IMG/VR virus record: IMGVR_UViG_3300021963_000208
Coordinates: 1-47,116 of that record
Direction: 5' to 3' (one strand)
DNA length: 47,116 nt
Source of the DNA: a virus
In this document: piece after piece, positions 10,419 to 45,450 of the stretch
Position numbering within the stretch: the first letter of the stretch is position 1
Layout of the letters: the number at the start of each line of letters is the position of its first letter
The notes under the pieces: model-generated
Database searches by the model: none
What the model was told of the DNA's origin: nothing
What the model saw: only the letters and a program-made list of their open reading frames with translations
Made by a program: the position numbers and the translations under genes

Positions 10419-13400
10419 TTAGCCTTTTTCTCTATTATAGCTGTTTATGCTTGTTGCAATATTAGGGATCATTCTTTGAATTTCAGCTCTTGTCTGTCTG
10501 CTAACATCACCAGTAACATTAATGTTAATAGTCTGTTGAGACTGGCCTTTGCTTGAAAGTTCTGCAGGCTTGATATCAGCCATCGAAGGCGAAGCCATAA
10601 GACTTGCAGAAACAAGACCACCAGCTGCAAACTTAGGAATCATTCCTTTATTGATACCAGCTAATAAAGGTAAGAATCTCTTTGTAGCTTTAGCATTAAC
10701 AACAAACTCACCATTAGACAGCTGTGCTGTAATTGAGTCAGAAGTACCAGTTCCTGGACCTTTTACAAGGCCTCCAGATGCAAAGAAAGGCACACTACTT
10801 ACAGCTAATAGTGATGTCAGCAATGATGACACAGTGCCAAAGCCTGTTATAAGAGTAGTCTGCAATGCAAATAACCAACTACCATAATATGCTAGTTTAG
10901 CCTGCTCACTAACTTGCTCTGTAAGAGCAATACCAAACAAGCTTGCAACACCAGAAATAAGTGTTCCAAAGAAACCGCCAATACTAGCTATGCCGCTAGT
11001 TAAACTACCTAGGATACCAGAAAGCAACCCTGTGGATTCGTCACTTGCAGCATTTGCAGTAACGCCAACAGATGGTGTTGCAGAAGCCCCACCGCCACCA
11101 AACCCAAGATTACTTAAGGCACTACCACCCAAGCTAAATATCTTGGACCCAAGACCTCTAAGGGCTTGAGTAAGAATACCGTTCTCACCAGTGAATGGGC
11201 TTGTAAGACCTTCAATAAAGGTTTTAATAACTTGGTTTGCAAAGCTGTCTAAGATCGCTTTAGTCGTATCTCTCCAAGAAGCGTTACCTGTTAAATAATC
11301 TGTAAGCGCACTAGACCAAGAGCTTGTTATAGAGGATGCAAAGGCTTTTCCAGCTTCAGATGTTTGTTTTCTAACATCTATTGTTGCTGTTGCAATTGCT
11401 TCATCTAATCGTTCTCTAGCAGCATTTACTGCATTCTGAGCAGCTTTCCTTATAAACGCTGAAGCACCAGGATCTTTCTGAATTTCATTTCTTGTGTCGG
11501 TCGCGGCCTCTAATTGTGTAGTTAAGCTTCTTATAAGCTGATCATTTGCGTTACTTACAAGATTATAAGCGGCTTGATCAACTTCAATACCTAAGCTTTT
11601 TAATCTACTAAGAGTTCCAGCACCAAACGACAAAGCACTGATAGCTGTTTGTCCAGCTATTGTACCTCTTCTCTGTGTGTTTTCTACCGCAAACTGAGTA
11701 CCAATGCCAAGATTTCTATTTGTCTTTGCGCTATTTGCATCTAATGCAAGAAGACCTAATCTGTCTAATTCACGTCTGTTAACTTGAGCTAGTAGATCTT
11801 TATAGTCAGCTAGAGCAGGAAATGCATCAGTAATCTTAGACACAAGGTCATCTATCGGCATTAAGGCAATTTCAGAAGCTGCTTCTAAGTATTTTATACG
11901 AAGCACTTCAGCACTTCTGGACACTTCTAAAGATCTTTGTCTCAGTTGATCAAATGAGTCTAAAAGTCTATTTGTTACATCGCCTTGAACTGCAGTTGTA
12001 CCAGGATAGTCGATTGTTTCTTTTAAGACAGATGGACCCGTCCTGTTTGGTATTGCATAAACCTGAACGGTGTTATTAATAGGCTGACTACCAGACATTG
12101 GAAGCTTTTTAAGCTCTTCAATACCAGACAATAGTTTCTTAGCTTCATCTGATAATTTAATTATCAAACTGTCGCCTAGACGCGCTGCTTCTCTATCTGT
12201 AAGGTTTACGCCAAATGCTTTATTAATAGCATCAACTCTAACGTCAAAATTAGCAAAAGTATTTTTAAGTTTTTCGGCTTTCTTTTGAGCATCAACAAGC
12301 TCGCCTACAATCTCTTTAAATCTTGCAGCATTATTTGGATCCTTTAACTTATCCTGTAATTTTACAATTTCAGTGTCAATTACAAGGAACTGAGAAATGA
12401 TATCGCTTGTTAAGTTATTTACATCAAATAAGTCAGAGATGCCAAATTTAGACAAAGCCTGTAGTACTTTTTCACCAGAGGCGTATAGTAAATTAATGTA
12501 AACACCAAAGGCTTTCTGAGATGCCGCAAGCTTTCTTGCAATTATTTTGTCAATTTCAACTTTAGAAGCTCTTTCGCCCAAATGCTTAAGATCTTTTTCA
12601 ATTAAATTGACAGCTGCAGACACATCTTGAAGTATTGACAATTGTTCTGGATTTAACAGTTTGAGATCTTCAAGAGATATGGAACTTCCAAGGCTAGAGA
12701 TATTACTGATAAGATCTTGCAAAGTTTTAGGAGCTTCTTGCAGATCTTCTTTAAGTCTTTCTATTTGTTTTGTAAGACTTTCAACAACTGCACCACGGCC
12801 TTCTCTTGTTGCTTTTTCTAAATCTTCATTGAGTCTTACGAGTTTATTAATACCAATTGTTGCAACATTAAGACCTTTGTTTTTAACAAGATCATTAAAA
12901 TCTATGTTTACACTGGCGGCTAAATCTTTTAATACAGAAATATTAGAACCAGCCGTTTTTCGGGCTTCATTTGTTACAGTATTTCTGAGATTGCCAATCG
13001 CTTGTTGAACATTCTTTCTAGCTTGTTCATAGCTGTCGTATGCCTCTTGCTGAGCTTGAGTAACTTCTTTTCCACCAAAGAATCTTCTGATAGTTCCAAG
13101 CCAAGAATCATCTCCAGGCTTTAAAGATTGCATTGGTCCAGGAAGTTTTCTCTTGAGATTTTCTTCAGCAATTACAACATCGTTAGCAAGCTTAAATAAA
13201 TTTTCAGAAACATCATCACTGAGTCCTTCTAATGTTTCTTTACTAAAGATTCCAATACCAGCTCGCTCTAAACGTTCTTTAAGTAAGAATTGTTTTCTCT
13301 GAGTACCGCCTTCTTCACTACGTAACTTAAACTCTAATACTTGAGTTTTAATTTCAGTTATGCGATAAATAATTTGGTTTTGTTCAGCAATATTCTTAGT

Positions 13401-16400
13401 TTTAACTAATTGTTCAGCTAGCTCTTTAGCAGAATTGCTTAATCTTTCGATATTAGCAAATGATTTATCGTCAATTGCAAACAACTCGTCAGATTTAAAA
13501 TCAGCTCCAATAGCCTTAAGATTAGTTGCAACAGCGCCTAGTCTGTTTTGGAAATCTTGAATGTCTCTGTTTGCCTGATCTATTCCAATTTGCTTTAGAC
13601 TTGCATTCTTAAGTTGCTCACCTAATAGATCTCTTTGTTGAACTCTAGGATCGTCTTTAGATAGCGGTGTTGAAAAGCCAAAAATATTTATTTCAGCATC
13701 TGAAACAGCTTTAAAGGCTTTTAAATAGCCCTGTTCCAAATCTGTAATTTGTTTTGCTAATTCTGCATCTGGAAATTCTAAACTTTTTACTTTTTGAGCA
13801 AGTCTGCCAATTTCTTCAGCATTTGGATCTAATGGCCTGAATCTAGCATTATATCTAGTGTTTTCTTCAGATCGCAGTTTATCTAAGTCTTCCGTTGCGC
13901 GTAGCTTGCCTTTAGGTGTTGTTGCAAGTGCTCTTCTAGCTCTAATTAACGCCTGATTAACTTGGAATGCAATATCTAATCCAAATTGCTGAGCACCGGT
14001 TATAACTCTTTGTGCAGTAGTTACAGGTTGCAGATTTTGCAATTCTTGAAGTTCCTTTATAAAGTCTTCAGTATTAAATGCTGATCTAGCCTCTATTTTA
14101 GGTATTAAATTATTCAGACTTCTATCAAGAGCAGCAATTGAATCTCTTGTGTCTTGTGAAACTCTACCAGTCCTTTCTTCTTCATCAATAGATTGGACAA
14201 TTGTTTCATTAAGTTTAGAAATTATTCCTTGTAATTTCTCACTGTCTTTTGAAGAAATATTCTTGAAGTTAATACCTTCTAAGGAATATGTCAAAGGCAA
14301 TTTTCTAGATCTTGCAAAATCTTCTGTTCCAGCTTCAAGACCAGTCACCTTTGATTTTTTTCTGACATCAAAACCTAAAGCACCTTTTATTTTATTTACA
14401 GCATCTTTTATTTTAGCACTTAAATTAAGTCCAAAGAACCAGTCAATAAATGCAGTAATTGCACTAGTAAGCAATAGGATTATTGCGCCTTTTATTGAGA
14501 ACACAAAACCTAGGATTGCTCCACCAAGTCTTACAAACACAAATTGGAAGGCTGCAATTAGAGCTGCTGCAATGTTCTTTCTAAAGATTAGTGCAACTTC
14601 AGCCGCAAATGTAGCCGCTGCAATAGCAATTCCAGCATCTTTTGTAAGTGCATATGTTAGACCACCAGCAAGAGCGCCAGCACCACCAATGATGCCAATG
14701 TTCTTCATACTAGCAGCTACCTTACCAATGCTAGATACTGTAGTGCTGGCCCAGGAAGTTACTTTAGAAATATCAAATGCAGATGAGATTAAAGAAATAA
14801 CTCTTTGTCTAAAGAAGATTAATGCACCAATAATTAAAGGAATTGAAATTCCAATAATTTGCAATGCAGTAGCTGCAAACGGATTCTCAAGCTTAATCTT
14901 ATTCCAGTTATCAATCATGTCCTGGAATACGCTTTGATCTTTAAGCTTAGGCGCGGCATTCTCTGCAGCACTAGCAGCTGTCGCAAATAGCGAGACAATA
15001 CCGGCAATCAATACAACCTTGCCAGCTTTGCCAAACATCATTCTGCCGAGCAAGCCTGTTTCACCACCAACTTTTGCAGCAATTCCAGATAATTTAGAAC
15101 TTTCAGAAGCAACAGTCGAAGCAGTTTGTCTCACAGAATCTCTAAAACCACCAAAAGCCTTAGTACTGAATCCGCCTAGGAATGAAGGCAGACTTAACTC
15201 GCCAAGCTTTTGCTTCAGGATAGACAACTGAATTGTAGCAGCAGTAGCTACAGCAGCAACTTGTTTCTTTACAGCATTAACTGTAACTTCAGGTTTTGTG
15301 CCAAGCAACAATGTCTTGACAAAATCATAGCCTTTAGAAACAAATGGAGTTGCAGCATCTACAACTTTTCCAGTTATTTTATCTAAAACAGACTTTAGAG
15401 CAACAGAGGCTCTTTCAGCCCATGTTCCAGTCTGTCCAAAGAAGATGTCATAAAGTGTGCTATTGGCTGTTGCAGTTTTTGCTGAATTCTTTAAAGCATC
15501 AGTGATTGGTGCAAGTACTTTAGAACCTACGGCATCTACAATCTTGTTTACACCGGCTTGACCAAACAATGTAGTGTAAATTAAACCGCCCTGTAAAGCA
15601 TATTGAGCCAATACAGAATGCGAAAAGATTGCATCAAATGCACCAAGGCTGTTTAAAAGTAATCCAATAATACTTAATGCTCTGGCAGAGCCAAGTTTAC
15701 CAAACAAGAACTTAGAAATAATGCCATCGTCCTTGCCAGTGATTACTTTGCCAATCTTTCCAAAAATGCCTTCAATACCTTCTATTGCATCTTTTCCAAT
15801 CCCCAAGAACTTCAATGTTTTAGCAGCAACACCACCAAATAGGAAAGCTCCAAGCAATCCTAAAGGCCCAGAGACGCCAACAACATCACCAACATTAAAG
15901 ATTCCTTTTATTAAAGAACCAATTAATGGCAGTTGTTCAGCAAAGCCTCTGACAAATGAAGATACAATTCCAAGTAATGCATTCAAGAATTGAGGCAGCT
16001 CTTCAATAAGCGTACTTACTAAGAATCCAGCAGCTTTACCGAGTTGATAACCTAATTCTGAAACAAAACTTCCACCAGTAAGGGCAGCACCAAACTGTTC
16101 TGCAATAAGGGTTGAGCTAGCTGTTAAAGAAGTAATAATAGCTGCAAGGAGAACATTCTTAATAACACCGGCTGGAAATAAGGCTGAAATCAGTAAGCCG
16201 GAACCAGCGACAAGAGCAAATTTAAAGATGCTAGGGAAAGACTCTGCCAGATCTGCTAAAATTAACTTAGCAGATTCTGCAAACTTCAAGAAGCCTTCAG
16301 TCCAATCTTTAGTTTCTAATTTAGGAAGCTTAAATGAAGTAAAAGAAAAATCAATTGCTTTGATATCTGAAAAATCAAAGTTCAACCTTCTTTTGCTGTC

Positions 16401-18290
16401 AAAGATATTTTTAAAAAGTCCAATTGTATTGTTCTTAAATTTATTAAGACCAGCACTAGCTTTATCCCACAACGCGTTAGAAGTGTCAATGATATCTTCT
16501 ACAGTATCAGTCCACCAAGAGTTACCTATAACCTTGTCGTAGATTTGAAAGAATACTTCAATTACTTTCCTACCAAAATCTTTAATATTTTGATAAGCTT
16601 TTTCTAAATTAGACTTGCTTCTGATTCCATCAAAGAAGTCTAATACGCTTTCGTAAGCTGTTTCTAAAGCACCCTTTATTGAGAAAGAGGTGCTAAAGTC
16701 ATAAATAATTCCGTAAACAGCTTTAACAAACTCGTAGATACCTCGCATTGCTAATACAATAGCAACACCAATAGACTTTGTAATAGCTGGTAAAGAGTCT
16801 TTTAATGCACTTGTAAGTGCTTTAATTGATGGTGCTAAGTAATACTCAGCAAGTCTGCCTACTTCATAGAACTTGATAGCAACGCCAGAAAGACCTCTAA
16901 CAATCTCACCAAGTGTTCCAATAAAGTTTTCAAGGTTTCCGCCAGTAAACACAAATACGGTGTCTAAACGCAATCCAAAATATCTTCCAATATTTTTAAA
17001 GCCAGTATCAAGCTGTTTAAAGAATTTGGTTAATTGACCGCCAATTGCATTTGTATTACCTGCAACCGCTTTAAACAAGTCTTGGAATGCGCCAGCATAA
17101 GAGTTAAGAGTCTCTCTGCTAAAGAATCTTTCAAAAGTAGCTCTGTTAAATCCAGCACCAGCCCAATATGTAGGACTTAGTCGCTTAAGATTCTTAATAG
17201 CTTCTTCAACATCAGATTCAATAGAGATTAAGTCTACAAACTTAAACCTATTTATAGAGGTGAACAAGCCACCTGTAAACTTATCAAACGCCATGAAAGA
17301 CTCTTGCAAGTCTTTCTTAAGTGTTCGGCTAAATGCAACTGATGGTATGATCTGTGCAACTTGTTTACCAAGTTCTTTAAAGGTACTTAGTATTGGTCCG
17401 CCAATTGATTTAATGCCACCAGTAACTCTATTAAATGAATATGATATATTGGCGCCTAGCTCAAAAGCATTTTGAGATGCTTCTTTTATTCGCTTGGCGA
17501 AGCCAAACGTACTAGCTCCAAGAGATTCACTTAACCCTAGCCCTTTGTCAAGCTCGCTTACATAAATTTTAATAGAATCGCTTAAGAGACTATTTGCTTG
17601 TGCAAGAGTAGGTCTTAAATCACCAAATTCTTTGTTAATAGCTTTTGACTGGTTTAACAAAGCATTAAATACAACATCAGATGTTAATTTGCCATCTGCT
17701 GCAATTAGTCTTAACTTGCCTACGCTTGTATTTAGTTCGTCAGCAATTGCTTGAGCAATTCTAGGTGTCTGCTCAAGGACAGAATTCAGTTCTTCGCCTC
17801 TGAGTGTACCTGATGCAATACCTTGACCCAACTGAATCAAAGCACCAGCTGCAGACTCTGCACTAGAACCTGATATTGCAATAGCTTGTTGTACACTCTT
17901 TGTAGCTTGAAGAATTTTATCAGTAGATGCGCCTGTTGACTTTAAAGCTCTGCCGAACGATGCAAAGGTTGTTACTGTCCCTTGCAAAGAGCCTCTAGTG
18001 TCTTCCGCAATCTTAAATAAAGCTTCTTGTGTCTGTACAAGTTCTTTTGTTCTACCAGTTACAGTAGCAATCTTGTTGCTAAGATTTGTAAATTCTGTAG
18101 ATACATTCTTGATATAATTTACAGCCAGACCAGCTGTAGCTAACGCTCCTAAAGAAGCAAACATGTTCTTTAACGAAGCGCCAGTCTGATTTGTAGTTTT
18201 CTCAATATTTCTTAATGATGCGTTTATAGCTGCAAGATCTTGTTCGGCTTTAGAAGTTCTTGCTTCTACATCTATACGTACACCAGACAT
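10419..18290 (-). CDS. Tape measure protein (2623 aa)
   Basis: This is the tail-length ruler and a DNA-ejection component. Residues about 50-210 form the N-terminal tape-measure domain typical of lambda-like phages (SGSSAESAAGALIQLGQG, RGEELNSVLEQTPRIAQAIA). Long hydrophobic helical blocks follow (about 650-870 and 1050-1270), then extended charged helices and coiled coil (about 1300-2100). Near the C-terminus comes the common FFASGGLVKGPGTGTSDSI... NGEFVVNAKAT motif and a NVTGDVSRQ tail. At about 0.15 nm per residue the protein predicts a tail close to 390 nm. It follows the G/GT chaperone and a neck-type gene, and its ribosome-binding site (AGGAG) directly follows a terminator-like hairpin. 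Confidence 0.95.
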   Translation of the reverse strand: MSGVRIDVEARTSKAEQDLAAINASLRNIEKTTNQTGASLKNMFASLGALATAGLAVNYIKNVSTEFTNLSNKIATVTGRTKELVQTQEALFKIAEDTRGSLQGTVTTFASFGRALKSTGASTDKILQATKSVQQAIAISGSSAESAAGALIQLGQGIASGTLRGEELNSVLEQTPRIAQAIADELNTSVGKLRLIAADGKLTSDVVFNALLNQSKAINKEFGDLRPTLAQANSLLSDSIKIYVSELDKGLGLSESLGASTFGFAKRIKEASQNAFELGANISYSFNRVTGGIKSIGGPILSTFKELGKQVAQIIPSVAFSRTLKKDLQESFMAFDKFTGGLFTSINRFKFVDLISIESDVEEAIKNLKRLSPTYWAGAGFNRATFERFFSRETLNSYAGAFQDLFKAVAGNTNAIGGQLTKFFKQLDTGFKNIGRYFGLRLDTVFVFTGGNLENFIGTLGEIVRGLSGVAIKFYEVGRLAEYYLAPSIKALTSALKDSLPAITKSIGVAIVLAMRGIYEFVKAVYGIIYDFSTSFSIKGALETAYESVLDFFDGIRSKSNLEKAYQNIKDFGRKVIEVFFQIYDKVIGNSWWTDTVEDIIDTSNALWDKASAGLNKFKNNTIGLFKNIFDSKRRLNFDFSDIKAIDFSFTSFKLPKLETKDWTEGFLKFAESAKLILADLAESFPSIFKFALVAGSGLLISALFPAGVIKNVLLAAIITSLTASSTLIAEQFGAALTGGSFVSELGYQLGKAAGFLVSTLIEELPQFLNALLGIVSSFVRGFAEQLPLIGSLIKGIFNVGDVVGVSGPLGLLGAFLFGGVAAKTLKFLGIGKDAIEGIEGIFGKIGKVITGKDDGIISKFLFGKLGSARALSIIGLLLNSLGAFDAIFSHSVLAQYALQGGLIYTTLFGQAGVNKIVDAVGSKVLAPITDALKNSAKTATANSTLYDIFFGQTGTWAERASVALKSVLDKITGKVVDAATPFVSKGYDFVKTLLLGTKPEVTVNAVKKQVAAVATAATIQLSILKQKLGELSLPSFLGGFSTKAFGGFRDSVRQTASTVASESSKLSGIAAKVGGETGLLGRMMFGKAGKVVLIAGIVSLFATAASAAENAAPKLKDQSVFQDMIDNWNKIKLENPFAATALQIIGISIPLIIGALIFFRQRVISLISSAFDISKVTSWASTTVSSIGKVAASMKNIGIIGGAGALAGGLTYALTKDAGIAIAAATFAAEVALIFRKNIAAALIAAFQFVFVRLGGAILGFVFSIKGAIILLLTSAITAFIDWFFGLNLSAKIKDAVNKIKGALGFDVRKKSKVTGLEAGTEDFARSRKLPLTYSLEGINFKNISSKDSEKLQGIISKLNETIVQSIDEEERTGRVSQDTRDSIAALDRSLNNLIPKIEARSAFNTEDFIKELQELQNLQPVTTAQRVITGAQQFGLDIAFQVNQALIRARRALATTPKGKLRATEDLDKLRSEENTRYNARFRPLDPNAEEIGRLAQKVKSLEFPDAELAKQITDLEQGYLKAFKAVSDAEINIFGFSTPLSKDDPRVQQRDLLGEQLKNASLKQIGIDQANRDIQDFQNRLGAVATNLKAIGADFKSDELFAIDDKSFANIERLSNSAKELAEQLVKTKNIAEQNQIIYRITEIKTQVLEFKLRSEEGGTQRKQFLLKERLERAGIGIFSKETLEGLSDDVSENLFKLANDVVIAEENLKRKLPGPMQSLKPGDDSWLGTIRRFFGGKEVTQAQQEAYDSYEQARKNVQQAIGNLRNTVTNEARKTAGSNISVLKDLAASVNIDFNDLVKNKGLNVATIGINKLVRLNEDLEKATREGRGAVVESLTKQIERLKEDLQEAPKTLQDLISNISSLGSSISLEDLKLLNPEQLSILQDVSAAVNLIEKDLKHLGERASKVEIDKIIARKLAASQKAFGVYINLLYASGEKVLQALSKFGISDLFDVNNLTSDIISQFLVIDTEIVKLQDKLKDPNNAARFKEIVGELVDAQKKAEKLKNTFANFDVRVDAINKAFGVNLTDREAARLGDSLIIKLSDEAKKLLSGIEELKKLPMSGSQPINNTVQVYAIPNRTGPSVLKETIDYPGTTAVQGDVTNRLLDSFDQLRQRSLEVSRSAEVLRIKYLEAASEIALMPIDDLVSKITDAFPALADYKDLLAQVNRRELDRLGLLALDANSAKTNRNLGIGTQFAVENTQRRGTIAGQTAISALSFGAGTLSRLKSLGIEVDQAAYNLVSNANDQLIRSLTTQLEAATDTRNEIQKDPGASAFIRKAAQNAVNAARERLDEAIATATIDVRKQTSEAGKAFASSITSSWSSALTDYLTGNASWRDTTKAILDSFANQVIKTFIEGLTSPFTGENGILTQALRGLGSKIFSLGGSALSNLGFGGGGASATPSVGVTANAASDESTGLLSGILGSLTSGIASIGGFFGTLISGVASLFGIALTEQVSEQAKLAYYGSWLFALQTTLITGFGTVSSLLTSLLAVSSVPFFASGGLVKGPGTGTSDSITAQLSNGEFVVNAKATKRFLPLLAGINKGMIPKFAAGGLVSASLMASPSMADIKPAELSSKGQSQQTININVTGDVSRQTRAEIQRMIPNIATSINSYNREKG

Positions 18291-21480: not shown

Positions 21481-22665
21481 TTAAGAGTGGAAGACAGGCA
21501 GAATACCAAGGCTCAGAGCAGAGTTAAACTTACGACCCCATGAACCAGTAGTGCTAGCAGCACCGTTGGTAACAGTAGTAAGAGCCTTCGGAGTACCACT
21601 CTCGATAGCGTACATGTACTCAGCATCAGAGGGGAACTTCTCTTGCGAACCAGCCCAGTTGTAACCAGCCGGAGCCATCACATAACCCCAACGATACCAA
21701 ATAGAAGTAGCACCGCCACCCTTGTACTTGTTACCATCACGATAGATTTCAACCTGATCAGGCACAGCCAGAGGACGCATTGCGATAGCACCAGGAAGCA
21801 CAATGAACGAAGTCTTTGTACCAACGATGTCAACGCCAGCACCAGTGTTAATCTTAGCCAGTTCAGTAGAAGAAAGGCTTTGAGTAGCACGAGTCTGAAT
21901 CAGACGGAACTTACCATTGAAAATGGTGTTGAACATCACATTGCCGTCTTGCACAGGCGTTTCGTCAACCAGATTGGCAGAACGCAACGAAGCCATGATT
22001 TCAGGCGAAGTGACCAAATAAGCAAATTCAGGCTCATAATCCTTGTATGCCATACCAAAAGCATTCAAGAAGGCTTCAGCACGTGAAGCACCTTGAACAG
22101 CTGCAGTAGGAGCAGCAACAGGCCTAGAAGCACCTAAGTCCACATAGAAGCCATAACGCTTGTCAGTAGGATCGTTGTCAAAAGTTTGACCACCGAGACC
22201 TGCTTGACCTGATGCAGCAGCTGCACCATTAAGAGCTTCAGAAATAGCAACACCCTTCAGGATAGACAGGAGAGCATTGTGTTCGTCTTGCGAACGGGTT
22301 TCAGCGAAATCACGACCAATCTTAGCCAGACCATCTTGCTGAGTAACGACTTGCTGCATGTTCACCTTTTCGGCGCCATGCGTACGCACAGTCTTCACAT
22401 AGTTCAGGTAGTCTGAGCTGTAGTTGGTCTTAGTACCATCACTTGCATCAGTCAATGAAGCAACGTTAACAGTAGGATTCAGCGGTTTGAACCAACGAAC
22501 CTGACCGATGAAAGTCTCAGTTGAAGTATCGATATTGGGGTTATCACCCACAATACCAGTGCCAACCAGCTTCTTTGCATTGGTGTAGGCTTCGTCAGAG
22601 TAAGCACTAATAGCCTCTTGTAAAACAAAGTTATCAGCGCCAGTAACATTAATACGAGCAGTCAT
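21481..22665 (-). CDS. Major capsid protein (394 aa)
   Basis: The start is ATG at 22665 with AAGGAAACTTAA upstream. The product contains an N-arm rich in Thr/Ala, an extended middle, and a C-terminal region with FIVLPGAIAMRPLAVPDQVEI and SIWYRWGYVMAPAGYNWAG. This pattern is typical of a large group of HK97-fold phage capsids. It follows the scaffold gene and precedes the connector. The coding sequence is richer in G+C than its neighbours, consistent with optimised codons in a highly expressed gene. Confidence 0.85.
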   Translation of the reverse strand: MTARINVTGADNFVLQEAISAYSDEAYTNAKKLVGTGIVGDNPNIDTSTETFIGQVRWFKPLNPTVNVASLTDASDGTKTNYSSDYLNYVKTVRTHGAEKVNMQQVVTQQDGLAKIGRDFAETRSQDEHNALLSILKGVAISEALNGAAAASGQAGLGGQTFDNDPTDKRYGFYVDLGASRPVAAPTAAVQGASRAEAFLNAFGMAYKDYEPEFAYLVTSPEIMASLRSANLVDETPVQDGNVMFNTIFNGKFRLIQTRATQSLSSTELAKINTGAGVDIVGTKTSFIVLPGAIAMRPLAVPDQVEIYRDGNKYKGGGATSIWYRWGYVMAPAGYNWAGSQEKFPSDAEYMYAIESGTPKALTTVTNGAASTTGSWGRKFNSALSLGILPVFHS

Positions 22666-22688: not shown

Positions 22689-23369
22689 TTAGCCACGAAG
22701 TTTGCCTTCTTTGGCAAGTTTAAGAACTTCGTCTTGTGATAATTGAAATAAAGATTTCTTTCCACCAGACGTGTCAGACGGCTTCCCACCATTACTACCA
22801 GAACCTGAGCTAGCTTTAGCTTTAAACAAGAATGAATTGTCGTCAGAGTCAGCAAACCCTTTGACAAAGTCTCGAATAGAGATACCAGTCTTGTGAACCC
22901 AAACACCTTGATCATTTTGAACAAGTTGTCCCACAATTTCACGATATGCCATTTCTACGGCATTCTCATTTCTGAAAGGATGAGATGCTAATGCATTTCT
23001 AACGTCAATGTCTCGGGTAAGCTCAACATTACGTTTTTGTTCTGCAGTCAATTTAGCATTCAGGTCAGCCAATTGCATTTCGTAGGCTTCCTTGTGTTTG
23101 CCTTCGTCTTGCAGTCGCTTTAATTCGGCTTCACGCTCTTTCTTCTCAAATTCTTTGATTTTAGTCAAAGCTTCATCACGAGAACTGTAAGCTTTGTCAA
23201 GCTTTCCTTTAATGTCTTTCAATGCCTCGTCAAGTTTTGCTTGAACAAGTGCGTCAACATCAGGAACGTTCTGCGTGTTGGTATTTTGGTTTTGAGAATT
23301 TTGATTGTTATTGCCATCAGAATTCTGATTAGTATTTTGATCAGTATTTTGATCTTGATTGTCAGCCAT
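22689..23369 (-). CDS. Capsid scaffold protein (226 aa)
   Basis: The first 35 residues are Asn/Gln-rich and disordered (NQDQNTDQNTNQNSDGNNNQ), followed by a long coiled coil (about 45-125), rich in Lys and Glu. A C-terminal region (about 130-226) ends in basic GGKKSLFQLSQDEVLKLAKEGKL. That plan, acidic/coiled-coil and a basic C-terminal capsid-binding end, is the signature of a phage scaffold. It sits directly before the major capsid gene and starts about 100 bases after a promoter-like motif. Scaffold is lost or digested during head maturation. Confidence 0.85.
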   Translation of the reverse strand: MADNQDQNTDQNTNQNSDGNNNQNSQNQNTNTQNVPDVDALVQAKLDEALKDIKGKLDKAYSSRDEALTKIKEFEKKEREAELKRLQDEGKHKEAYEMQLADLNAKLTAEQKRNVELTRDIDVRNALASHPFRNENAVEMAYREIVGQLVQNDQGVWVHKTGISIRDFVKGFADSDDNSFLFKAKASSGSGSNGGKPSDTSGGKKSLFQLSQDEVLKLAKEGKLRG

Positions 23370-23397
23370 TTTTATATCCTCTGAGTACGACTCATTA

Positions 23398-23422
23398 TTA
23401 ATAAGAATACAATTCTTATTAA
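23398..23422 (-). promoter_or_regulatory. 11-bp hairpin in the leader of the scaffold gene
   Basis: TTAATAAGAAT (23398-23408) and ATTCTTATTAA (23412-23422) form a perfect 11-bp inverted repeat with a 3-base loop. No T-run follows on the minus strand, so it is not a classical terminator. It lies about 29 bases before the scaffold start. It might stabilise the leader, serve as an RNase III site, or act as a DNA hairpin. N4 virion RNA polymerase recognises small hairpins with 3-base loops, so a link to the fusion polymerase is possible but unproven. Confidence 0.55.
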
Positions 23423-23473
23423 GATAAATTTAAATATGAACGATAATTACATAGTAATAATCAAATTCACACC

Positions 23474-23490
23474 TGGGTTAATTTAACGGG
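23474..23490 (-). promoter_or_regulatory. 17-base promoter-like motif, copy 1
   Basis: On the plus strand this reads TGGGTTAATTTAACGGG, and an identical 17-base copy is at 40113-40129. Its core GTTAATTTAAC is a near-perfect palindrome. Here it is part of a larger inverted repeat, TGGGTTAA (23474-23481) and TTAACCCA (23497-23504), which includes the stop codon of the polymerase gene. It lies 105 bases upstream of the scaffold gene. It may be a promoter or operator for the capsid operon. Confidence 0.5.
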
Positions 23491-23496
23491 GTCTGG

Positions 23497-26400
23497 TTAA
23501 CCCACACCATACCATCCGTAATCATCTGAAAAACCTTTTGGAATTTCTTTTAAAATATCTTCTCTAAGCAAAATGTCGGTATCTTTCAAAAGTCTTCCAC
23601 CAATTCTTGACTTTCCAACAACTGGTATTAAACCTAATTCGATTGCTTCATTAAGGTACTTATCGTAAACCTTTTTTGGCAATCCCCTAGCCTTCATTTC
23701 ATCCAGAGTTTCTTTGATTACATTTCTTTCTAATGTTTTTGCATATATTTGTCTTAAAGCATTTCTAGCCTTAAGCATATCAGCAGCATTAGCAAAGAAC
23801 GCATCATGAATCGTAGATGTTGTGACGCCATTTTGCTTACCCCATAAATGAAAGCGTTTGACGATAACAGCATCATTAGAATGGTTACCATTAACAGCAT
23901 AGGCAGTCCTAGCTTTCGTAGGATCACCAATGTCATTAATTTTGCCAGACTTGTTGATTATCTGTTCCCACCAAGTTGCTTCGGTCTTTTGAGGCACTTG
24001 AAGAATATTTGTAAACCAATTTCCATTATTGTCTCTATACCTCAGACGCTCTTCAAATGTTTGCGTAAAGTTTTGTTCGATAGTTTTGCCATCAAAGTTA
24101 ACCCACGGAATATTTGTCCAGCTCTTCGGTAGCTTGTTAGCATAGAAAATTTCTAATTCGTTAATTGTCTTTAACTGAAGGAAGTCAACTTTCAGATACT
24201 TAGCACCAGTTCTTCTTGTCTCAGGTGCAGGTACACCATAGACAATTTGACTTAAAGTACTGTTAGGTTTCCAGAAACTGAATCTGCTCAATATCTTTTC
24301 ACTAACAGGTTGGCCTGGCTTTAAGCCAAGTAATTCACTAACACGATCTGGCAGTGTATAGCCTTTCTTCTTTGAGCCAATTACTTTTATTTTAGCAATT
24401 GTTTGCCAATCGAAATCTGCCTTAGATGGTTTGGCGTATGTCATATACTCGTTTGCAAGTCTACCGAAGTATCTTGTAAACTCTTTAAGTATAGGTACTT
24501 GTTCGCCAAGGTATTCACTCATAATTTGAGCTATAGCTTTAAAATCATTTGGTGTAACAACCTTGTCGTAATTATGTGATAACTTTTCTACAAGATCTTT
24601 TGTTTTAGGATCTAGGAAGTAAAGCTGTTCCATAATCTCATCACCAGGGTCTAAACCCTTGTTAAACACATCTTTAACATTTTCTCTTAGCACTCTAAGT
24701 TCTTCAGCTGTTTCAGGGTCTATCTTTTCGTACCTAGCAATTCTGGCACTAATCTCGTTCAAGACCGCATCTCGATCAGATGCCTTAACAACTAAAGTGT
24801 TTGCATCTTTTTCAAGAACTTTTGCCAGTTTGCCTTCAACACTAAAAATACCTGTACGCTCTCCAGCACCATAGAAAGTAACCATGTTCTGAGCTTTAGC
24901 GGCTTTTCTAAGATCTTTTTCGTTAAGACCAAACTTTTGATTCAAAGCCTTGAAACGAGGATCATTATAAGTAGCCGCTGCAATTTCATCATAGAGACGT
25001 TTCTTTTGAGTTGTGGGGATAACGTTACTAAGTTCTGCAAGTTGTTTATTTCTTGTTGTAAGAGCAATGATTTGTGCGCCAGACGAAGAAGCATCTTGTT
25101 CTAACGCCAATGCAATTTTATAGTCATTTAGCCTCCTTAAAGAAGCTTCAGAATAATCACCACCAAGATAGTTATCTATCTTTGCCATTTCAATTGCAAA
25201 TCTAAAGAACTTACCTTGCTCTTCACCATCAATATTTGCTAAGAGTTCTGATTCTAGGATTGCTCTAATGTCGTTAGGCTTTCCTCTAATCATATGATTT
25301 CCAATTTTAACTAATTCTGGACGCCATCTCTGAGCAATCTTTTGCCTTCCAGTAATAGTTAACGAATTAAATCTTCCTTCTAAGAAGTCGTTTAAACCAC
25401 CTAAGAAAGATCCAATCTGATCTTGTAAATCTTTAAATTCGTCTGGACTAAAGTTCTTAGCAACAGCAGTATTTAGAAATGGTCTAAAGGTTTCTCCACT
25501 CTGAGGGCTGATAAGTCCACGATCATAGATGCGAGCACGATGATCAACAAACGCGTGATTACTAAACGGCTTTTGTGAATTTCTAAGCCACTCCATAGCC
25601 TTGAAACGCTCATACGCATCTCCTCTAGATGCTATATACTTTCTGTAATTATTAAGATCATTGTAGAACTTTGCTTTACCTTTGTCATCTTCAAAATAAA
25701 GCAACTTGTTTACAAAGTCATAATAGTCTTCATCAATCTTATATTGAGATTGTGATGCCCAATTCAGTGCATCAACAAAATCCTTATCTACAAACTCTTC
25801 AGGGAAGTCGCTAAAGCTCGATGTAGAGGTTATTGGTATTCTTGTGTCTTCAAGACCAAGCGCACCACGATCAATAAAATATGTCTTATAACCTTCTCTA
25901 ACAAGTAGGCGATTCTTATCTGATGTTACAGCAACTCTAAGACCAAGATCTACTTTTCTAGTAAGCTTAGCATATTCTTGAATACGAGGGTCAGTTACTC
26001 TAAGATTATAAGCAATTGTATCATAGTAAGGCCCAAAGTAATTTCCACTCAACCTACTACGCATTCTTCTCTTTTGAACACCAAATGTTTCAATTTCAAA
26101 GAACTTACCAACGTTCTTACTTTCTAAAATCTTAGTACCTAATTTAAACCATGCATTTCTAGCACCATTCAAGTTTGCCAAGTTATACAGGTCTCTACCG
26201 AGAGATACAGCAAACTGATCTCTATCTGGCAAGTCAGCTAAACTAAGCCTATGAGCAAATCTTAAATAGAATTGATGTAAATCAGAATCACTTAGTCTGT
26301 TTCGAATAACTAATGGGATACTTGCATCAAATACTTCACGAAGCTCTCTAGCAATTTTGGGTGCTACAGTGTCTTCCCATTTGTTTTTCTTTGTGATATT

Positions 26401-28125
26401 TGATATAAAAGAATCATGTAATTCATCTAATTGAACTGGACCTAAAACTGGGTCAATGTAATTGTCCTGTAATAGGCGCTTCATTAGGTCAGTATCTTTG
26501 CGTAATTGAGTTTCAATTGCATCAGATACGTTCATTACATCAAATTTAATCTGGCTTTGTGCTACAGCTTTGAAGTTAGCCCAAGGCTCAGGATTCTTTC
26601 TATATCTGGTAAATACAATTCTAAGATTATCAACAACTGCTGCACGTTCATTTACGCTCATTCTTTCAGCCAGATTTTCATCCACTGATCGAATAAAGTC
26701 TTTGTCTCGTTGCAATAGCTCAGTGCTTTCGTCCAACAATCTAAGGTTATTAGATAATACAGCTGGATTTGGCTGATATAGTCTGATGTCTTCATAGCGT
26801 CCTGTAATTGGATTAAATTTCAATTGGTCTTCTCTAGGTGGAGAAGTCAGGACTCTATTCTTTGTAGCACGCTTTGTACCTAGTAGCATGCCACGATAAT
26901 TAGTCATTGAAAGAGTACCATTTAGTTCACCAGCTTGTAGTAAATAATAATCAATTAAAGTATTCTTAAGTTTTTGATTATCAACAAAATCGTCTGGCGT
27001 AGATGCACCTAATTGCATTGCATCTAACTTTTGTTTAGCAAGTGCAAACTTCCTAGTATCATTTGGTAATTCATATCCAGCATCTGTCATAGCACGAAGC
27101 TCTTTAATGCCGATTGAATTACCTTCAGGATTAGTAAATTTATCCAGAGTTAGCTGACCTGTATTAAACAGTTCAACTTTTTGATAATCACCAAGATGTC
27201 TTAACTGGACATCTTTAGGTTGTCTTAATAGCCATTCATTATAGCTCTCACGCATTGGCGTTTGACCATCATAGAATGCTATTTGCTTATCTGTTAAGTT
27301 TTGTAAGTTACGTCTACGAACTTCAGCAACACCTTCCAGCTTTGAAATATCGTCCCAGTTCTTAAAAACAGGAACTGTTGTAGAACGACAATTAAAGTGA
27401 GCCGGAGGCAAGTGCGCCGTGTCCCCAATGGGGTAGATAGTCCCGTCTCGGTGCGCACACAGAGGCGTGGTTCTGGAGTCTAGGACGGCTACATACTGCC
27501 ACCCCTGAAGGGCTTTCGAGTTCGCCTTGTAAACTTCTTGATCAGTTTGTGCGGTTACAGAAGTAATTGCAGTAACAACAAGAGCTTTCGATTGCATGCG
27601 AGTTATATTATGGACATTGCCTTTTCGAACTTCTAATGCAATTTGATCTACTGTTTTACCCTCTGAAATCCCTCTTCTGATAACAGCTTCAAGTCTTTTC
27701 TTTTCATTAATACTGACGCCTGCCCATCCTGCTGCAAGTGTCCTATTTTCAATTAAAGGTTTTTCTAGAACAATTTCTTCAGCAACTCTCTTTTGTGGTC
27801 TTTGTGTTCTCCATATTTGACCCATTGCTGTTTCAATATTTTGATACACATAAGAAACTTGATCTGAAACTAAATCTAGTAGAGATCGTTTGGTAATATT
27901 AAAAGTTTCTCTATAGGTTTTTGTTAGCTCTTTGTCAATTGCTTCTCTAAGTTTTTCAAAACCCTTTTGAGAGAGATTAGCTTCTTTGATAAGTTTATCA
28001 ACACGGACAGTATGACCGTCAATAACTAATTCAACCTTACCATTGACTCTTCTCTCATAAAGGCGGATCATTGCCGCCCTATCTATAGCTTTGTCATATA
28101 TTTGTGTATTAGCATTAACGGCCAT
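23497..28125 (-). CDS. MuF minor capsid protein fused to a single-subunit RNA polymerase (1542 aa)
   Basis: Residues about 1-260 form a MuF (SPP1 gp7/Mu gpF) minor-head domain with the C..H.DG motif (C223, CAHRDGTIYPIGD) and H-FNCRS (C246). The remainder contains the ordered motifs of T7-like and N4 virion RNA polymerases. These are VDHRARIY (D861, the T/DxxGR region, R->A in the last but one position), motif A LEQDASSSGAQ (D1011), motif B RKAAKAQNMVTFYGAG (R1073, K1077, Y1085) and motif C TIHDAF (H1440, D1441). R-K-Y spacing is exactly that of T7 R627, K631, Y639, and D1011/D1441 correspond to catalytic D537/D812. Motif B and C are further apart (about 364 residues) than in T7, as also in N4. 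It follows the portal gene and precedes the scaffold, the normal MuF position. I infer a polymerase packaged with the head and ejected with DNA. Activity and packaging are untested. Confidence 0.92.
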   Translation of the reverse strand: MAVNANTQIYDKAIDRAAMIRLYERRVNGKVELVIDGHTVRVDKLIKEANLSQKGFEKLREAIDKELTKTYRETFNITKRSLLDLVSDQVSYVYQNIETAMGQIWRTQRPQKRVAEEIVLEKPLIENRTLAAGWAGVSINEKKRLEAVIRRGISEGKTVDQIALEVRKGNVHNITRMQSKALVVTAITSVTAQTDQEVYKANSKALQGWQYVAVLDSRTTPLCAHRDGTIYPIGDTAHLPPAHFNCRSTTVPVFKNWDDISKLEGVAEVRRRNLQNLTDKQIAFYDGQTPMRESYNEWLLRQPKDVQLRHLGDYQKVELFNTGQLTLDKFTNPEGNSIGIKELRAMTDAGYELPNDTRKFALAKQKLDAMQLGASTPDDFVDNQKLKNTLIDYYLLQAGELNGTLSMTNYRGMLLGTKRATKNRVLTSPPREDQLKFNPITGRYEDIRLYQPNPAVLSNNLRLLDESTELLQRDKDFIRSVDENLAERMSVNERAAVVDNLRIVFTRYRKNPEPWANFKAVAQSQIKFDVMNVSDAIETQLRKDTDLMKRLLQDNYIDPVLGPVQLDELHDSFISNITKKNKWEDTVAPKIARELREVFDASIPLVIRNRLSDSDLHQFYLRFAHRLSLADLPDRDQFAVSLGRDLYNLANLNGARNAWFKLGTKILESKNVGKFFEIETFGVQKRRMRSRLSGNYFGPYYDTIAYNLRVTDPRIQEYAKLTRKVDLGLRVAVTSDKNRLLVREGYKTYFIDRGALGLEDTRIPITSTSSFSDFPEEFVDKDFVDALNWASQSQYKIDEDYYDFVNKLLYFEDDKGKAKFYNDLNNYRKYIASRGDAYERFKAMEWLRNSQKPFSNHAFVDHRARIYDRGLISPQSGETFRPFLNTAVAKNFSPDEFKDLQDQIGSFLGGLNDFLEGRFNSLTITGRQKIAQRWRPELVKIGNHMIRGKPNDIRAILESELLANIDGEEQGKFFRFAIEMAKIDNYLGGDYSEASLRRLNDYKIALALEQDASSSGAQIIALTTRNKQLAELSNVIPTTQKKRLYDEIAAATYNDPRFKALNQKFGLNEKDLRKAAKAQNMVTFYGAGERTGIFSVEGKLAKVLEKDANTLVVKASDRDAVLNEISARIARYEKIDPETAEELRVLRENVKDVFNKGLDPGDEIMEQLYFLDPKTKDLVEKLSHNYDKVVTPNDFKAIAQIMSEYLGEQVPILKEFTRYFGRLANEYMTYAKPSKADFDWQTIAKIKVIGSKKKGYTLPDRVSELLGLKPGQPVSEKILSRFSFWKPNSTLSQIVYGVPAPETRRTGAKYLKVDFLQLKTINELEIFYANKLPKSWTNIPWVNFDGKTIEQNFTQTFEERLRYRDNNGNWFTNILQVPQKTEATWWEQIINKSGKINDIGDPTKARTAYAVNGNHSNDAVIVKRFHLWGKQNGVTTSTIHDAFFANAADMLKARNALRQIYAKTLERNVIKETLDEMKARGLPKKVYDKYLNEAIELGLIPVVGKSRIGGRLLKDTDILLREDILKEIPKGFSDDYGWYGVG

Positions 28126-28134
28126 ACTTTATCC

Positions 28135-28263
28135 TCATTTGTTTTTCCTACCAAGTGGCTTAGATGCTTCTTGAGCACTTTTGGCCATATCCTTGTTTTT
28201 CCAAATATTCCTATTCTCATTCATGTCTTTAATTCTGTTACCAACAGAGTTTATTTTAGACAT
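28135..28263 (-). CDS. Small basic protein (42 aa)
   Basis: It starts with ATG at 28263 (MSKINSVGNRIKDMNENRN), 8 bases inside the end of the portal gene, with a weak CAGGGA upstream. It ends 9 bases before the MuF-polymerase start. The product is very rich in Lys, Asn and Arg and ends KPLGRKNK, likely disordered or nucleic-acid-binding. Its codon pattern continues that of its neighbours. No family was recognised. Confidence 0.5.
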   Translation of the reverse strand: MSKINSVGNRIKDMNENRNIWKNKDMAKSAQEASKPLGRKNK

Positions 28264-29842
28264 TCCCTGATTGGCCAGGTTCTTGGTTTTGTAACTGGTT
28301 AGCATAGTCTTCAGTTCCTTTTGGCAACAGCATAGCATCATTGTTAATTTCAGTCTGGCCAGCTTGATCGTCATAATCAGGCGGAATCAAGTCGTTTTGC
28401 TTAAGCATTTCAAGCCACACAGATCTTGGAATTAATCCTTGTTGATACCATTCAGTAGCAAGTCTAAGCCAATCAGCACCTAATGGGATTGGATTAAAAT
28501 CAGCTGACAAAGAAAAATCGATATCAGCAGCTTTTAATTGAAGATCATAACGCCAATTAAGCATGAAACAGATAACTTGTTTCATTATATTGCTTATTTT
28601 GTTGTTAAGAGTACCTAGTTGTGCCGTTTGAGCAGCATTCCTGATTTCAAGAGCAACACCAGACTGAGCAGTTTCAGGCGTTAACATACGAATGCCCATC
28701 TTTGCCATTTCTTCAATAGAAGCAGCAATTGCGCGATCCATATCTTGTAATGCAGCTGTAGGTGTGTCTAAAATACCTGCAGTATCGCCTTGACGTAATC
28801 TAATCCAAGTTCCTAAACCACCACTAACAATTTCTTCAAAATCATCATCTGACATATCAGATGCAATATATGGCGTATAAGTAGATGCGCCATATAACAA
28901 GTGATTCCTTCTGCTCATTTTATTGTACAAGGAAACTTCTTTGTCAATAATTGGAGAAAGCATCGGCTCAATTGCATCAATACTGCCGTTTAGAGGCCAA
29001 GCAGGGATCATCTTAAGACGTTCGCCATTTGCCTGAATATTTTGAATAGTATTCTTAAGTACAAAAGCTGCTTTATGTGCTCCTGGCTGTTTCAGTATTT
29101 GACCTGCAACAACAGGCACATTAGTGGCCTTGTCTTCTCTTTTGTAAATTCTAATTTGATAATATCCGCTATCATCTAATTCATGAACCCATACTGTTTC
29201 AATCATATCAGGATGGAATTCATTTGAAACATATTCTTCCTCGTAACCTCTGACAATTACTCGACTAAGAACGTTTCTACCAAGTGTGTCTGTCTTAATT
29301 CTCCAATTAATGATAGACTCAGCTTGCATTAAAATAGGGTATGGCTTATATTTAGCTAATTCTTCTCTTGTTAAAGCTTCAACATTAGTTATTTGAGGGT
29401 AATCTACAAAAATCCAAGCACGGCTTGTTTGCACTTCTTCCCATAATGCAGAATCAAGGAAAGATGCTAAAGGAGAGTCGTCTCTGCCAAACTCATTCAT
29501 AATCCAGTTCTGAGCATCTGCAGGGATGTTTTCAGGTAGATTAAGAACAGGTTGTTTTCTGAGAAGGCCTCCTACTAGCATCTTTGAAAACTGAGCTACA
29601 ATTCCTGGCAATTCGGCTTCCGCTTTATAGAAGTCATATTGCCTTTGATCCATAGAGGGTGAGAATGGGATTAGTAAGTTGTTAAAGCGCAATACATCTA
29701 CCGTACTGTCAAATTCTTTAACATAACGCTCCCCACTACAGACAGCTCTGCTTTTATTCCATAAAGGTTTTAAAGATTCAAAAGAAGCGTTAGGATCTGC
29801 AACAGTTTTGACTGAAGCTTGGGCAGCGTTCACTACAACCAT
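28256..29842 (-). CDS. Portal protein, DUF4055 type (528 aa)
   Basis: The start is at ATG 29842 with GAGGGG upstream. The N-terminus (about 20-90) includes LKPLWNKSRAVCSGERYVKEF and FYKAEAELPGIVAQFSKMLVGGLLRKQP, and the middle has WAFVDYP-like RAWIFVDYPQ; together these follow the DUF4055 portal family. A later segment (about 330-420) with ISGGLGTWIRLRQGD and helices reading MTPETAQSGVALEIRNAAQ is a typical wing/stem part. Twelve copies should form the DNA entry vertex, and the next gene (the MuF fusion) would bind near it. Confidence 0.85.
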   Translation of the reverse strand: MVVVNAAQASVKTVADPNASFESLKPLWNKSRAVCSGERYVKEFDSTVDVLRFNNLLIPFSPSMDQRQYDFYKAEAELPGIVAQFSKMLVGGLLRKQPVLNLPENIPADAQNWIMNEFGRDDSPLASFLDSALWEEVQTSRAWIFVDYPQITNVEALTREELAKYKPYPILMQAESIINWRIKTDTLGRNVLSRVIVRGYEEEYVSNEFHPDMIETVWVHELDDSGYYQIRIYKREDKATNVPVVAGQILKQPGAHKAAFVLKNTIQNIQANGERLKMIPAWPLNGSIDAIEPMLSPIIDKEVSLYNKMSRRNHLLYGASTYTPYIASDMSDDDFEEIVSGGLGTWIRLRQGDTAGILDTPTAALQDMDRAIAASIEEMAKMGIRMLTPETAQSGVALEIRNAAQTAQLGTLNNKISNIMKQVICFMLNWRYDLQLKAADIDFSLSADFNPIPLGADWLRLATEWYQQGLIPRSVWLEMLKQNDLIPPDYDDQAGQTEINNDAMLLPKGTEDYANQLQNQEPGQSGNV

Positions 29843-38044: not shown

Positions 38045-39391
38045 TTAGAAGTTAAAACCTCTAACAGCTCTCTTCGTTCCCAGATTGACAGGAAACATAT
38101 ACTCTACACCATAACGAATACCGTCTGAGAAATGTTCTATGCCTTCTGATTTATCAATCACGGCAGTATCAGGGTTTCCATCAACCCATTTAGTACGTTC
38201 TAAAGATGTAATCACACCTGTACATCTCGGATGGACGTATAAATCTATATCTCCAGCTGCATTTAATAGTTTCCTATTTACTGCTGCAACTGAATCTACA
38301 ATTGGAGGAGCCTTACTATGAGCCAAGCAGCGAATGCCATGAGACTCGAGTATAGAGAAATCAGTACGCCCAACAGGAGCAGAGGATTTACGCGCTCTAC
38401 CTGATGGATCAGGATAAGCATAAATCTTATGTCCTTGAAAACGGGTCTTAATGGCAACAGCCAAAGTTTCCGTGTCAGGGTGTCCTTTAAACTCTTCCAA
38501 GATATGAATCTGCTTGCCTCTAATAGCCATAGCAGAAGAGCACTGGAGACCAACGTTAAAGTCAATATTAATATGTACGTCTTCACCACGTTCCCCATTT
38601 TCAGCTTCTGCAAAGTCTGGTAGTTCGGAGGTTACATGTTTCTTTCTGTCAAAACAGTAGAACACATTGTTGCCAGATTCTGCAAAAGATGCTAAATATT
38701 CTGAAGCAAATTCAATAGGATCTAGGTTGTGTCGAATTCTTTCAATTTCGTTAACATCAAGAAATGGAGACATCGTATAATCATAATGATATGATTTCCA
38801 ATTCTGATCCAGTTCCTGATAATTGAATAATTCATGAAAATAATTATAACCTTTTGGAGTACTAATAATCAAAGCACGACCAGGGCTTCTAGCACCATAA
38901 GTCAATGCTCTTTGATTAGACCAACGAGTTATAATCGTAGGCTGAATAACACCTTGCCATGCTTCTTTAGGGCTAATGCCTTTTCGACAAGATGAGACCT
39001 CATCCCACACAACAAAATAAGCACCTTTACCACGCATACGTTCGACTGCTTCATACGATAGCAATCTAAGTTCTACGTTGTTAGGAAATATAAATCGACC
39101 TAAGTCTCTAGAAGATCTAATAGCATAGTCTTCCATACCTAAATCATAGTTGATCAGAGGATAATAAATATCTGTTACTTGATCATAAGTTGGAGCAATA
39201 ATGTACACAATCTTGTTTGGCACTCGAACGTCTAATTCAAGAAGCTCAAAGACAGCTGTTACACCAGCAACACCTGCCATATAAGACTTACCCCAACCAC
39301 GAGAACAACAAACAACAGAAAATCTGTTTGTTTTATTAACAAATAAATCTTCATAGACCTCTGATTGGCCTTCATGAAGATTAATACTCAT
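38045..39391 (-). CDS. terL: Terminase large subunit (448 aa)
   Basis: Numbered from ATG 39391 (MSINLHEG), the Walker A-like motif SRGWGKS is at residues 30-36 and Walker B VVWDE at 127-131. A nuclease part follows, with DFNVG (INIDFNVG), YPDPSGR and a later DGIRYGVEYMF that supply the acidic residues of the RNase-H-like fold. The start overlaps the upstream stop by 11 bases (ATGAGTATTAA) and has GAAGG upstream; an in-frame TTG at 39409 is less likely. It pumps phage DNA through the portal and cuts it. Confidence 0.92.
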   Translation of the reverse strand: MSINLHEGQSEVYEDLFVNKTNRFSVVCCSRGWGKSYMAGVAGVTAVFELLELDVRVPNKIVYIIAPTYDQVTDIYYPLINYDLGMEDYAIRSSRDLGRFIFPNNVELRLLSYEAVERMRGKGAYFVVWDEVSSCRKGISPKEAWQGVIQPTIITRWSNQRALTYGARSPGRALIISTPKGYNYFHELFNYQELDQNWKSYHYDYTMSPFLDVNEIERIRHNLDPIEFASEYLASFAESGNNVFYCFDRKKHVTSELPDFAEAENGERGEDVHINIDFNVGLQCSSAMAIRGKQIHILEEFKGHPDTETLAVAIKTRFQGHKIYAYPDPSGRARKSSAPVGRTDFSILESHGIRCLAHSKAPPIVDSVAAVNRKLLNAAGDIDLYVHPRCTGVITSLERTKWVDGNPDTAVIDKSEGIEHFSDGIRYGVEYMFPVNLGTKRAVRGFNF

Positions 39392-39830
39392 CCTCGTCAC
39401 CTTCATCAAACTCTAATTGATCAGGTTGTTGATCATTAGCAATATATACTTCACCTTTCTTTGTAAGATTTACAATTAAAGGCATTGGTTTCTTCTCTTC
39501 AACTATTGTAGTCTCAGGCACACGACCGTAACCATATCGAAGAAGTTTATCTCCAATCATGTTTAACTTATCGTACAGTGCATGATGTACTTCAGCACGA
39601 TATGATCTAGGCTTACCAGTAGCAGTAAGCTCCACAATCACACCATCTCTAATCTTTTCTTGACGCAATATCTCTTCTTGTAACCTTCTGTAATTAGCTA
39701 CAAGTTCACCAATTGGGTCAAAGCCAAGCTGTTTCAATCTTGTCACAGATCGTTTACCACCAGCTTGATATTGTGGTATTCCAGGAGTGCGACCTCCTTT
39801 GATTGGAGGCTGCATAATATCATCAGCCAT
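39381..39830 (-). CDS. terS: Terminase small subunit (149 aa)
   Basis: The start has AAAGGACAACT upstream. The product has an N-terminal basic/Pro region (PPIKGGRTPGIPQYQAGGKRS) and a helical middle (QLGFDPIGELVANYRRLQEEILRQEK), typical of small terminases with helix-turn-helix-like DNA-binding and oligomerisation. The C-terminus is very acidic (LEFDEGDEDEY). Its gene precedes and overlaps terL. The non-coding region just upstream holds a large inverted repeat that might be a packaging site. Confidence 0.75.
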   Translation of the reverse strand: MADDIMQPPIKGGRTPGIPQYQAGGKRSVTRLKQLGFDPIGELVANYRRLQEEILRQEKIRDGVIVELTATGKPRSYRAEVHHALYDKLNMIGDKLLRYGYGRVPETTIVEEKKPMPLIVNLTKKGEVYIANDQQPDQLEFDEGDEDEY

Positions 39831-39975: not shown

Positions 39976-39981
39976 TTTAAA

Positions 39982-40058
39982 GACGTTCTATATAGGAATA
40001 GTATTAATTTAGTTATTAAGATGAATAACTAACTACTATAACAACTATATAGAACGTC
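39982..40058. repeat. Nested inverted repeat upstream of the terminase genes
   Basis: GACGTTCTATATAG (39982-39995) and CTATATAGAACGTC (40045-40058) are a perfect 14-bp inverted repeat with 49 bases between. Inside, TTAGTTATT (40009-40017) and AATAACTAA (40024-40032) form a 9-bp stem with a 6-base loop. A DNA cruciform or a folded RNA is possible. The region is AT-rich and has no T-run that would make it a terminator. Confidence 0.75.
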
Positions 40059-40112
40059 TATATTAGCGTTATTAAGGACATTAAAGGGTATTATTTCTCA
40101 GGAGAACGTCCT

Positions 40113-40129
40113 TGGGTTAATTTAACGGG
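40113..40129 (-). promoter_or_regulatory. 17-base promoter-like motif, copy 2
   Basis: The same 17 bases as at 23474-23490 (TGGGTTAATTTAACGGG on the plus strand). Here it is flanked by a 6-bp repeat GAGAAC/GTTCTC (40102-40107, 40129-40134). It lies about 283 bases upstream of terS. The copy lies in non-coding DNA between the small-gene region and the terminase operon. Confidence 0.5.
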
Positions 40130-40181
40130 TTCTCGCTAAGGTCACTAATGACTTCTCTGTGCTTAATTTTAAAAACATTAT

Positions 40182-44533: not shown

Positions 44534-44563
44534 TTTAACTCCTTAAGTTAATAGATATAATAA

Positions 44564-44589: not shown

Positions 44590-44593
44590 TGAA

Positions 44594-45446: not shown

Positions 45447-45450
45447 AGGT

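Follow-up and report, generated by a model that had tools for sequence, protein, structure and literature searches.

To our knowledge, single-subunit RNA polymerases that are carried in the virion have until now been known mainly from short-tailed phages of the N4 type. The virion RNA polymerase (vRNAP) of N4 is ejected and transcribes the genes for the second RNA polymerase of that phage (PMC12633501). In SPP1 the MuF protein gp7 enters the procapsid carried by the portal protein gp6, and for toxins fused to the C-termini of MuF proteins delivery has been proposed (PMC6316719). According to a survey of polyvalent proteins, N4-like vRNAP modules are confined to N4-like phages, and RNA polymerase is absent from the many MuF cargoes which that survey covers (PMC5512222). 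The gene described here joins a MuF head protein and a single-subunit RNA polymerase in a single frame.

A MuF head protein and an RNA polymerase in one gene

The window (the whole stretch of 47,116 nucleotides that was analysed, IMG/VR record IMGVR_UViG_3300021963_000208) carries the MuF–RNA polymerase fusion gene on its minus strand (23497..28125, delimited by its open frame, its size and its relatives). The frame runs from an ATG at 28125 to a stop at 23497 through 1542 codons without interruption and has the ribosome-binding site GAGGA 6 nt ahead of its start codon (28132..28136, minus strand); the computed product has 1542 aa, a mass of 177 kDa and a pI of 9.1. The head-morphogenesis part (aa 1–390, 26956..28125, minus strand) matches phrog_241 (E 3.8e-66) and includes the MuF domain proper (aa 145–250, 27376..27693, minus strand; PF04233, E 5.7e-14, 53.3 bits vs a curated cut-off of 29.6). 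The RNA polymerase part (aa 343–1542, 23500..27099, minus strand, its extent modelled with AlphaFold2 and Foldseek matches in the PDB) is recognized by PF00940 (RNA_pol, E 1.7e-11, 44.1 bits vs a curated cut-off of 22) and by the RNA polymerase family phrog_414 (E 1.7e-21). A model of aa 1–600 was of low confidence (pTM 0.48) and gave no PDB match at E ≤ 0.001, so that the MuF assignment rests on sequence profiles and synteny.

The neighbouring genes, also on the minus strand, are those of a long-tailed phage. Directly upstream lies the portal gene (28256..29842; phrog_145, E 6.2e-56; PF13264), which ends 130 bp from the fusion gene, and directly downstream the head scaffolding protein (22689..23369; phrog_206, E 1e-11), then the major capsid protein (MCP; 21481..22665; phrog_247, E 6.9e-22) and the tail genes; a tape-measure protein of 2623 aa (10419..18290; PF20155, E 6.8e-54, with PHROG tape-measure matches) is of the long-tailed (sipho-) type, and the terminase large subunit is encoded at 38045..39409 (phrog_2, E 1.7e-30). 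Before the scaffold gene stands a hairpin with a perfect stem of 11 bp and a loop of 3 nt (23398–23422, minus strand). Elsewhere in the window are a 2OG-Fe(II) oxygenase (31003–31644; PF13759, E 2.7e-13) between the portal and tail-fibre-like genes, a 1102-aa protein with long internal repeats 62–79% identical (33496–36804) adjoining the tail-fibre-like genes, and five tRNA genes (Met, Leu, Asn, Arg and Thr; 44017–46832) with an HNH_3 endonuclease ORF beside them (44078–44533).

The polymerase part contains the catalytic motifs of the T7 enzyme in order (all on the minus strand). These are D861-H-R-A-R865, the equivalent of T7 D421-WRG-R425 (25531..25545; D and R invariant); motif A, EQDASSSGAQ, with the catalytic D1011 (T7 D537; 25072..25101; D invariant); motif B, R1073-x3-K1077-x7-Y1085-G (T7 R627-K631-Y639; 24859..24909, by alignment); and motif C, TIHDAFF, with H1440-D1441 (T7 H811-D812; 23794..23814, by alignment). 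Ten positions (D861, R863, R865, Y867, D1011, K1077, Y1085, G1086, H1440 and D1441) are invariant in all 75 aligned sequences, the position of R1073 is R in 71 of them, K in three and Q in one, and in the DxxGR-type motif of the fusion clade the G is mostly replaced by A. The original prediction, which had described one uninterrupted 1542-codon gene in the MuF position of a phage with long-tail genes, with an N-terminal MuF domain and a polymerase with the T7 motif B spacing, is borne out in each of these respects: its residue numbers are exact, the R-x3-K-x7-Y spacing is that of T7, and the strand, which it did not give, is the minus strand.

An AlphaFold2 model of aa 343–1542, built with 49 sequences (pLDDT 84, pTM 0.79), has the right-hand polymerase fold on which that prediction had staked its case, and the fold is of the T7/mitochondrial type: the best PDB matches in Foldseek are POLRMT/mitochondrial and T7 RNA polymerases (prob 1.0, E 2e-17 to about 1e-17), with 10–14% identity to the top matches in structural alignment. 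Among viral models the best match is a 1463-residue protein (E 7e-67) of the same length as the DSS3_VP1 homologue discussed below; phage RNA polymerases come next and N4-like vRNAPs are weaker (E about 3e-13). A PDB match of 1uly to aa 674–808 was set aside as chance. Profile comparison (hhalign) gave a weak link between the fused polymerase and the T7-type second polymerase of related genomes (RNAP2; E 0.0012, motifs correctly aligned), and against N4 vRNAP only an unrelated segment was aligned (E 0.18), a result without support for profile homology. The enzyme is therefore a T7-type single-subunit RNA polymerase, as motif C is H-D and the profile link is to RNAP2 with none to N4 vRNAP; membership of the N4 vRNAP family is not supported by the profile result, by size or by motif C, which is not F-D. 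Of the ‘T7/N4-like’ label first given to it, the T7 part stands and the N4 part falls.

Relatives of the fusion gene and their inserts

Relatives of the fusion protein occur in at least 541 stretches of IMG/VR, and the fusion clade is a widespread, large and widely sampled group of long-tailed bacterial viruses. The homologue in EBPR siphovirus 1 is 62% identical over 100% of the length and has an HNH insert; those of the isolates DSS3_VP1 and DSS3_PM1 are about 30% identical over 94%. The MuF position of the gene is kept in relatives where annotated. Comparison with an 87%-identical relative gave a dN/dS of 0.06 for the fusion gene and a still lower value for the RNA polymerase core, where dS is near saturation, and purifying selection thus acts on the gene. 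In Pelagibacter phage Kolga a MuF protein of 633 aa without polymerase annotation occurs alongside a free RNA polymerase, an arrangement that may resemble the pre-fusion state.

In some relatives the fusion gene is interrupted. Group I introns (RF00028) break the frame in L088 (about 11239–12112), L092 (about 5278–6413) and L071 (about 12219–12975), and the frame-breaking inserts lie at one of two places, within motif B (aa 1082/1083) or shortly ahead of motif C (aa 1413). Frame 2 of the L071 intron has an HNH-like reading, and motif B of L016 contains a comparable insert that also bears an HNH (about 23189–24040). Other homologues are lengthened by in-frame inserts of 138–235 aa (L015 6078–6515, L009 8983–9396, L091 11319–12011 and L014 8956–9652), which enter the polymerase near aa 987, 1008 and 1106. 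Inteins were considered as the cause of these long homologues and rejected, since no match to any intein family was obtained and the inserts resemble insertion domains; one domain type occurs at two different sites (L014 and L091).

One relative, G006, encodes a PurZ-like adenylosuccinate synthetase (72955–73845) and an HD phosphohydrolase (56880–57341) and, on the evidence of these genes, is a candidate 2-aminoadenine (Z) genome. Among 12 records only G006 has the PurZ-like gene, and the HD phosphohydrolase was found there and, weakly, in the distant relative DSS3_VP1; a link of the whole clade to modified DNA was rejected because these genes are too sparse.

A second polymerase, two intergenic motifs and a proposed cascade

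A second RNA polymerase gene (RNAP2) was present in 14 of 14 records tested, DSS3_VP1 among them, and in most of these it is a free T7-like enzyme of about 740–770 aa. In the nearest relative it lies upstream of the genes for DNA polymerase, primase-helicase and ribonucleotide reductase. Neither RNAP2 nor the second of the two motifs described below is found in the 47-kb window, presumably because the window is a fragment of a larger phage genome (the near-complete relatives used mostly measure about 66–82 kb).

Motif 1 (CCCGTTAAATTAACCC) is conserved and intergenic and is a candidate late promoter. At up to three mismatches the window has two sites (0.16 expected), both on the minus strand: an exact match, CCCCGTTAAATTAACCC, in the gap between the fusion gene and the scaffold–MCP genes (23475..23491), and ACCCGTTAAATTAACCC, found by mismatch scan, upstream of the terminase–portal–fusion unit (40114..40130). 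An 18-nt inverted repeat (94%; TAAAGACGTTCTATATAG) with arms 49 nt apart lies between the latter site and the terminase genes (39978–40062). Seven of eight related records have four to seven motif 1 sites each (in G001 at 379, 19601, 42065, 48792 and 63340), every G003 site having one mismatch, and G004 has none at up to one mismatch; in the seven records first scanned, more than 25 sites were seen at up to two mismatches vs about 0.4 expected. Some sites in G005 and G008 are paired, about 115–155 bp apart. The motif is on the coding strand at 39 of 39 sites in the genomes checked, the two of the window included, and at all 75 sites in loci containing scaffold/MCP genes it lies 32–219 bp upstream of them; further sites precede other gene blocks. 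Exact matches in IMG/VR fall in 74 loci, of which 72 encode a homologue of the fusion group. The motif itself forms only a weak hairpin.

Motif 2 (TTGCGGAAAAANNRGTATCTTATATGA) is likewise conserved and intergenic, and its placing makes it a candidate early promoter, possibly that of the virion RNA polymerase. All 72 sites in loci shared with RNAP2 lie 0.7–5.1 kb upstream of that gene, and none was found in loci with capsid genes. Sites were seen in G001 (43220, 43885 and 63396), in G006 (40820, 42936 and 43352) and in other relatives, and in G003 in weak form only. Neither motif occurs as written in the 44 kb of DSS3_VP1 that were checked, and the promoter part of the scheme is therefore limited to the clade of the window. 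Hairpin promoters of the N4 type (3-nt loop) showed no excess between the genes in five records (14 found vs 9.7 expected).

We consider it probable that the fusion gene encodes a virion RNA polymerase acting in an N4-like cascade with RNAP2 and the two motifs; the case is stronger than that made by the original prediction because the related genomes hold a second polymerase and two classes of promoter-like motif. In this scheme, in which we infer the packaging, ejection and activity of the fused enzyme and its pairing with a motif, the MuF part would bind the portal within the procapsid, as SPP1 gp7 does, so that each particle would package the T7-type polymerase in a few copies. At infection the fused polymerase would travel down the tail with the DNA, refold in the cytoplasm and transcribe the early genes, RNAP2 included, from motif 2; RNAP2 would then read motif 1 as the promoter of the late units, namely scaffold–capsid and terminase–portal–MuF–RNA polymerase, the latter remaking the virion polymerase. 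A point against delivery is that a protein of about 177 kDa must traverse a tail tube of about 390 nm (a rule-of-thumb estimate from the length of the tape-measure protein), for which it would need to be unfolded.

An unlikely alternative with some evidence in its favour is that the fused enzyme is indeed a virion polymerase but that host RNA polymerase first transcribes the early genes and RNAP2 from motif 2, leaving the fused enzyme another job such as transcription-driven DNA intake or the reading of motif 1. In the T-bearing half of motif 2 sites, TTGCGG-16-TATGAT could pass for a poor sigma-70 site, and Kolga has a free polymerase with no fused one annotated. The conservation pattern of motif 2 is nevertheless a poor fit to sigma-70: a conserved block, GTATCTTATATGA, spans the would-be spacer, the T most needed by a −10 box is present in only eight of 17 sites, and in the window sigma-70-like sites are no more frequent than chance predicts. 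It is more doubtful still that the fused polymerase is made and active late in the infected cell, tied to the portal for assembly and not delivered to the next host. The gene does lie within the structural block behind a motif 1 site and so is presumably made late, but RNAP2 is already there for late transcription in every record tested, and a second polymerase on a portal-binding head protein is best explained by packaging. An assembly error or frameshift joining two genes, or a dead polymerase relic, has nothing found in its favour and can be dismissed: the fusion is in frame in many independent contigs (59 uninterrupted full-length frames among the locus matches) and in the isolates DSS3_VP1 and DSS3_PM1, which confirms it as real, and its catalytic residues are invariant and its dN/dS is low.

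Comparison with known systems

The closest described relatives are DSS3_VP1 and DSS3_PM1 (Naomviridae) and EBPR siphovirus 1, whose whole-protein homologues occupy the same position but carry no annotation beyond head or minor head protein; DSS3_VP1 differs further in having dU-DNA. The head-morphogenesis protein of the DSS3 phages has the accession YP_010105321.1. No description of a MuF–RNA polymerase fusion was found in the full-text literature searched, a search outside which the original DSS3 phage paper falls, and its authors may have noted the fusion. As DSS3_VP1 is cultured on Ruegeria pomeroyi DSS-3, the system is immediately testable, the passage of a large enzyme through a long tail included.

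MuF–effector fusions (polyvalent proteins and MuF toxins) share the N-terminal MuF domain, the enzymatic C-terminal part and the position beside the portal gene, but their described cargoes include ARTs, PBECR RNases, 2H, Nudix and RelA/SpoT enzymes; RNA polymerase widens this range. The T7-type polymerases (those of Autographiviridae and free RNAP2) share DxRxR, motif A, R-x3-K-x7-YG, HD, the Pfam RNA_pol match and the fold, whereas T7 RNA polymerase is an early cytoplasmic protein without a virion domain and is only remotely similar to the fused enzyme (about 12% identity in structural alignment). The candidate promoters would add natural polymerase/promoter pairs.

By analogy, the fused T7-type enzyme probably works like N4 vRNAP, and if it is packaged, each particle probably takes a transcription enzyme of its own into the host it infects next. 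N4 gp50 (Schitoviridae) has the same single-subunit fold and motifs, is placed with late virion genes, and belongs to a phage that encodes a second RNA polymerase and follows the same early-to-late cascade logic. It differs in its 3500 aa with N- and C-terminal regions of its own, against 1542 aa and a MuF address here, and in belonging to short-tailed phages with an F-D motif C and hairpin promoters, whereas the fusion clade is long-tailed, has H-D, and shows no detected hairpin promoters and no detectable sequence-profile relation to gp50, the structural similarity being E 3e-13. The fusion would be a second design of virion RNA polymerase, found in long-tailed phages and coupled to a head-address domain that is itself widespread, and we lean slightly towards the view that a large long-tailed clade evolved a full virion-polymerase cascade separately from N4, with a portal-addressed polymerase reading motif 2 and RNAP2 reading motif 1.
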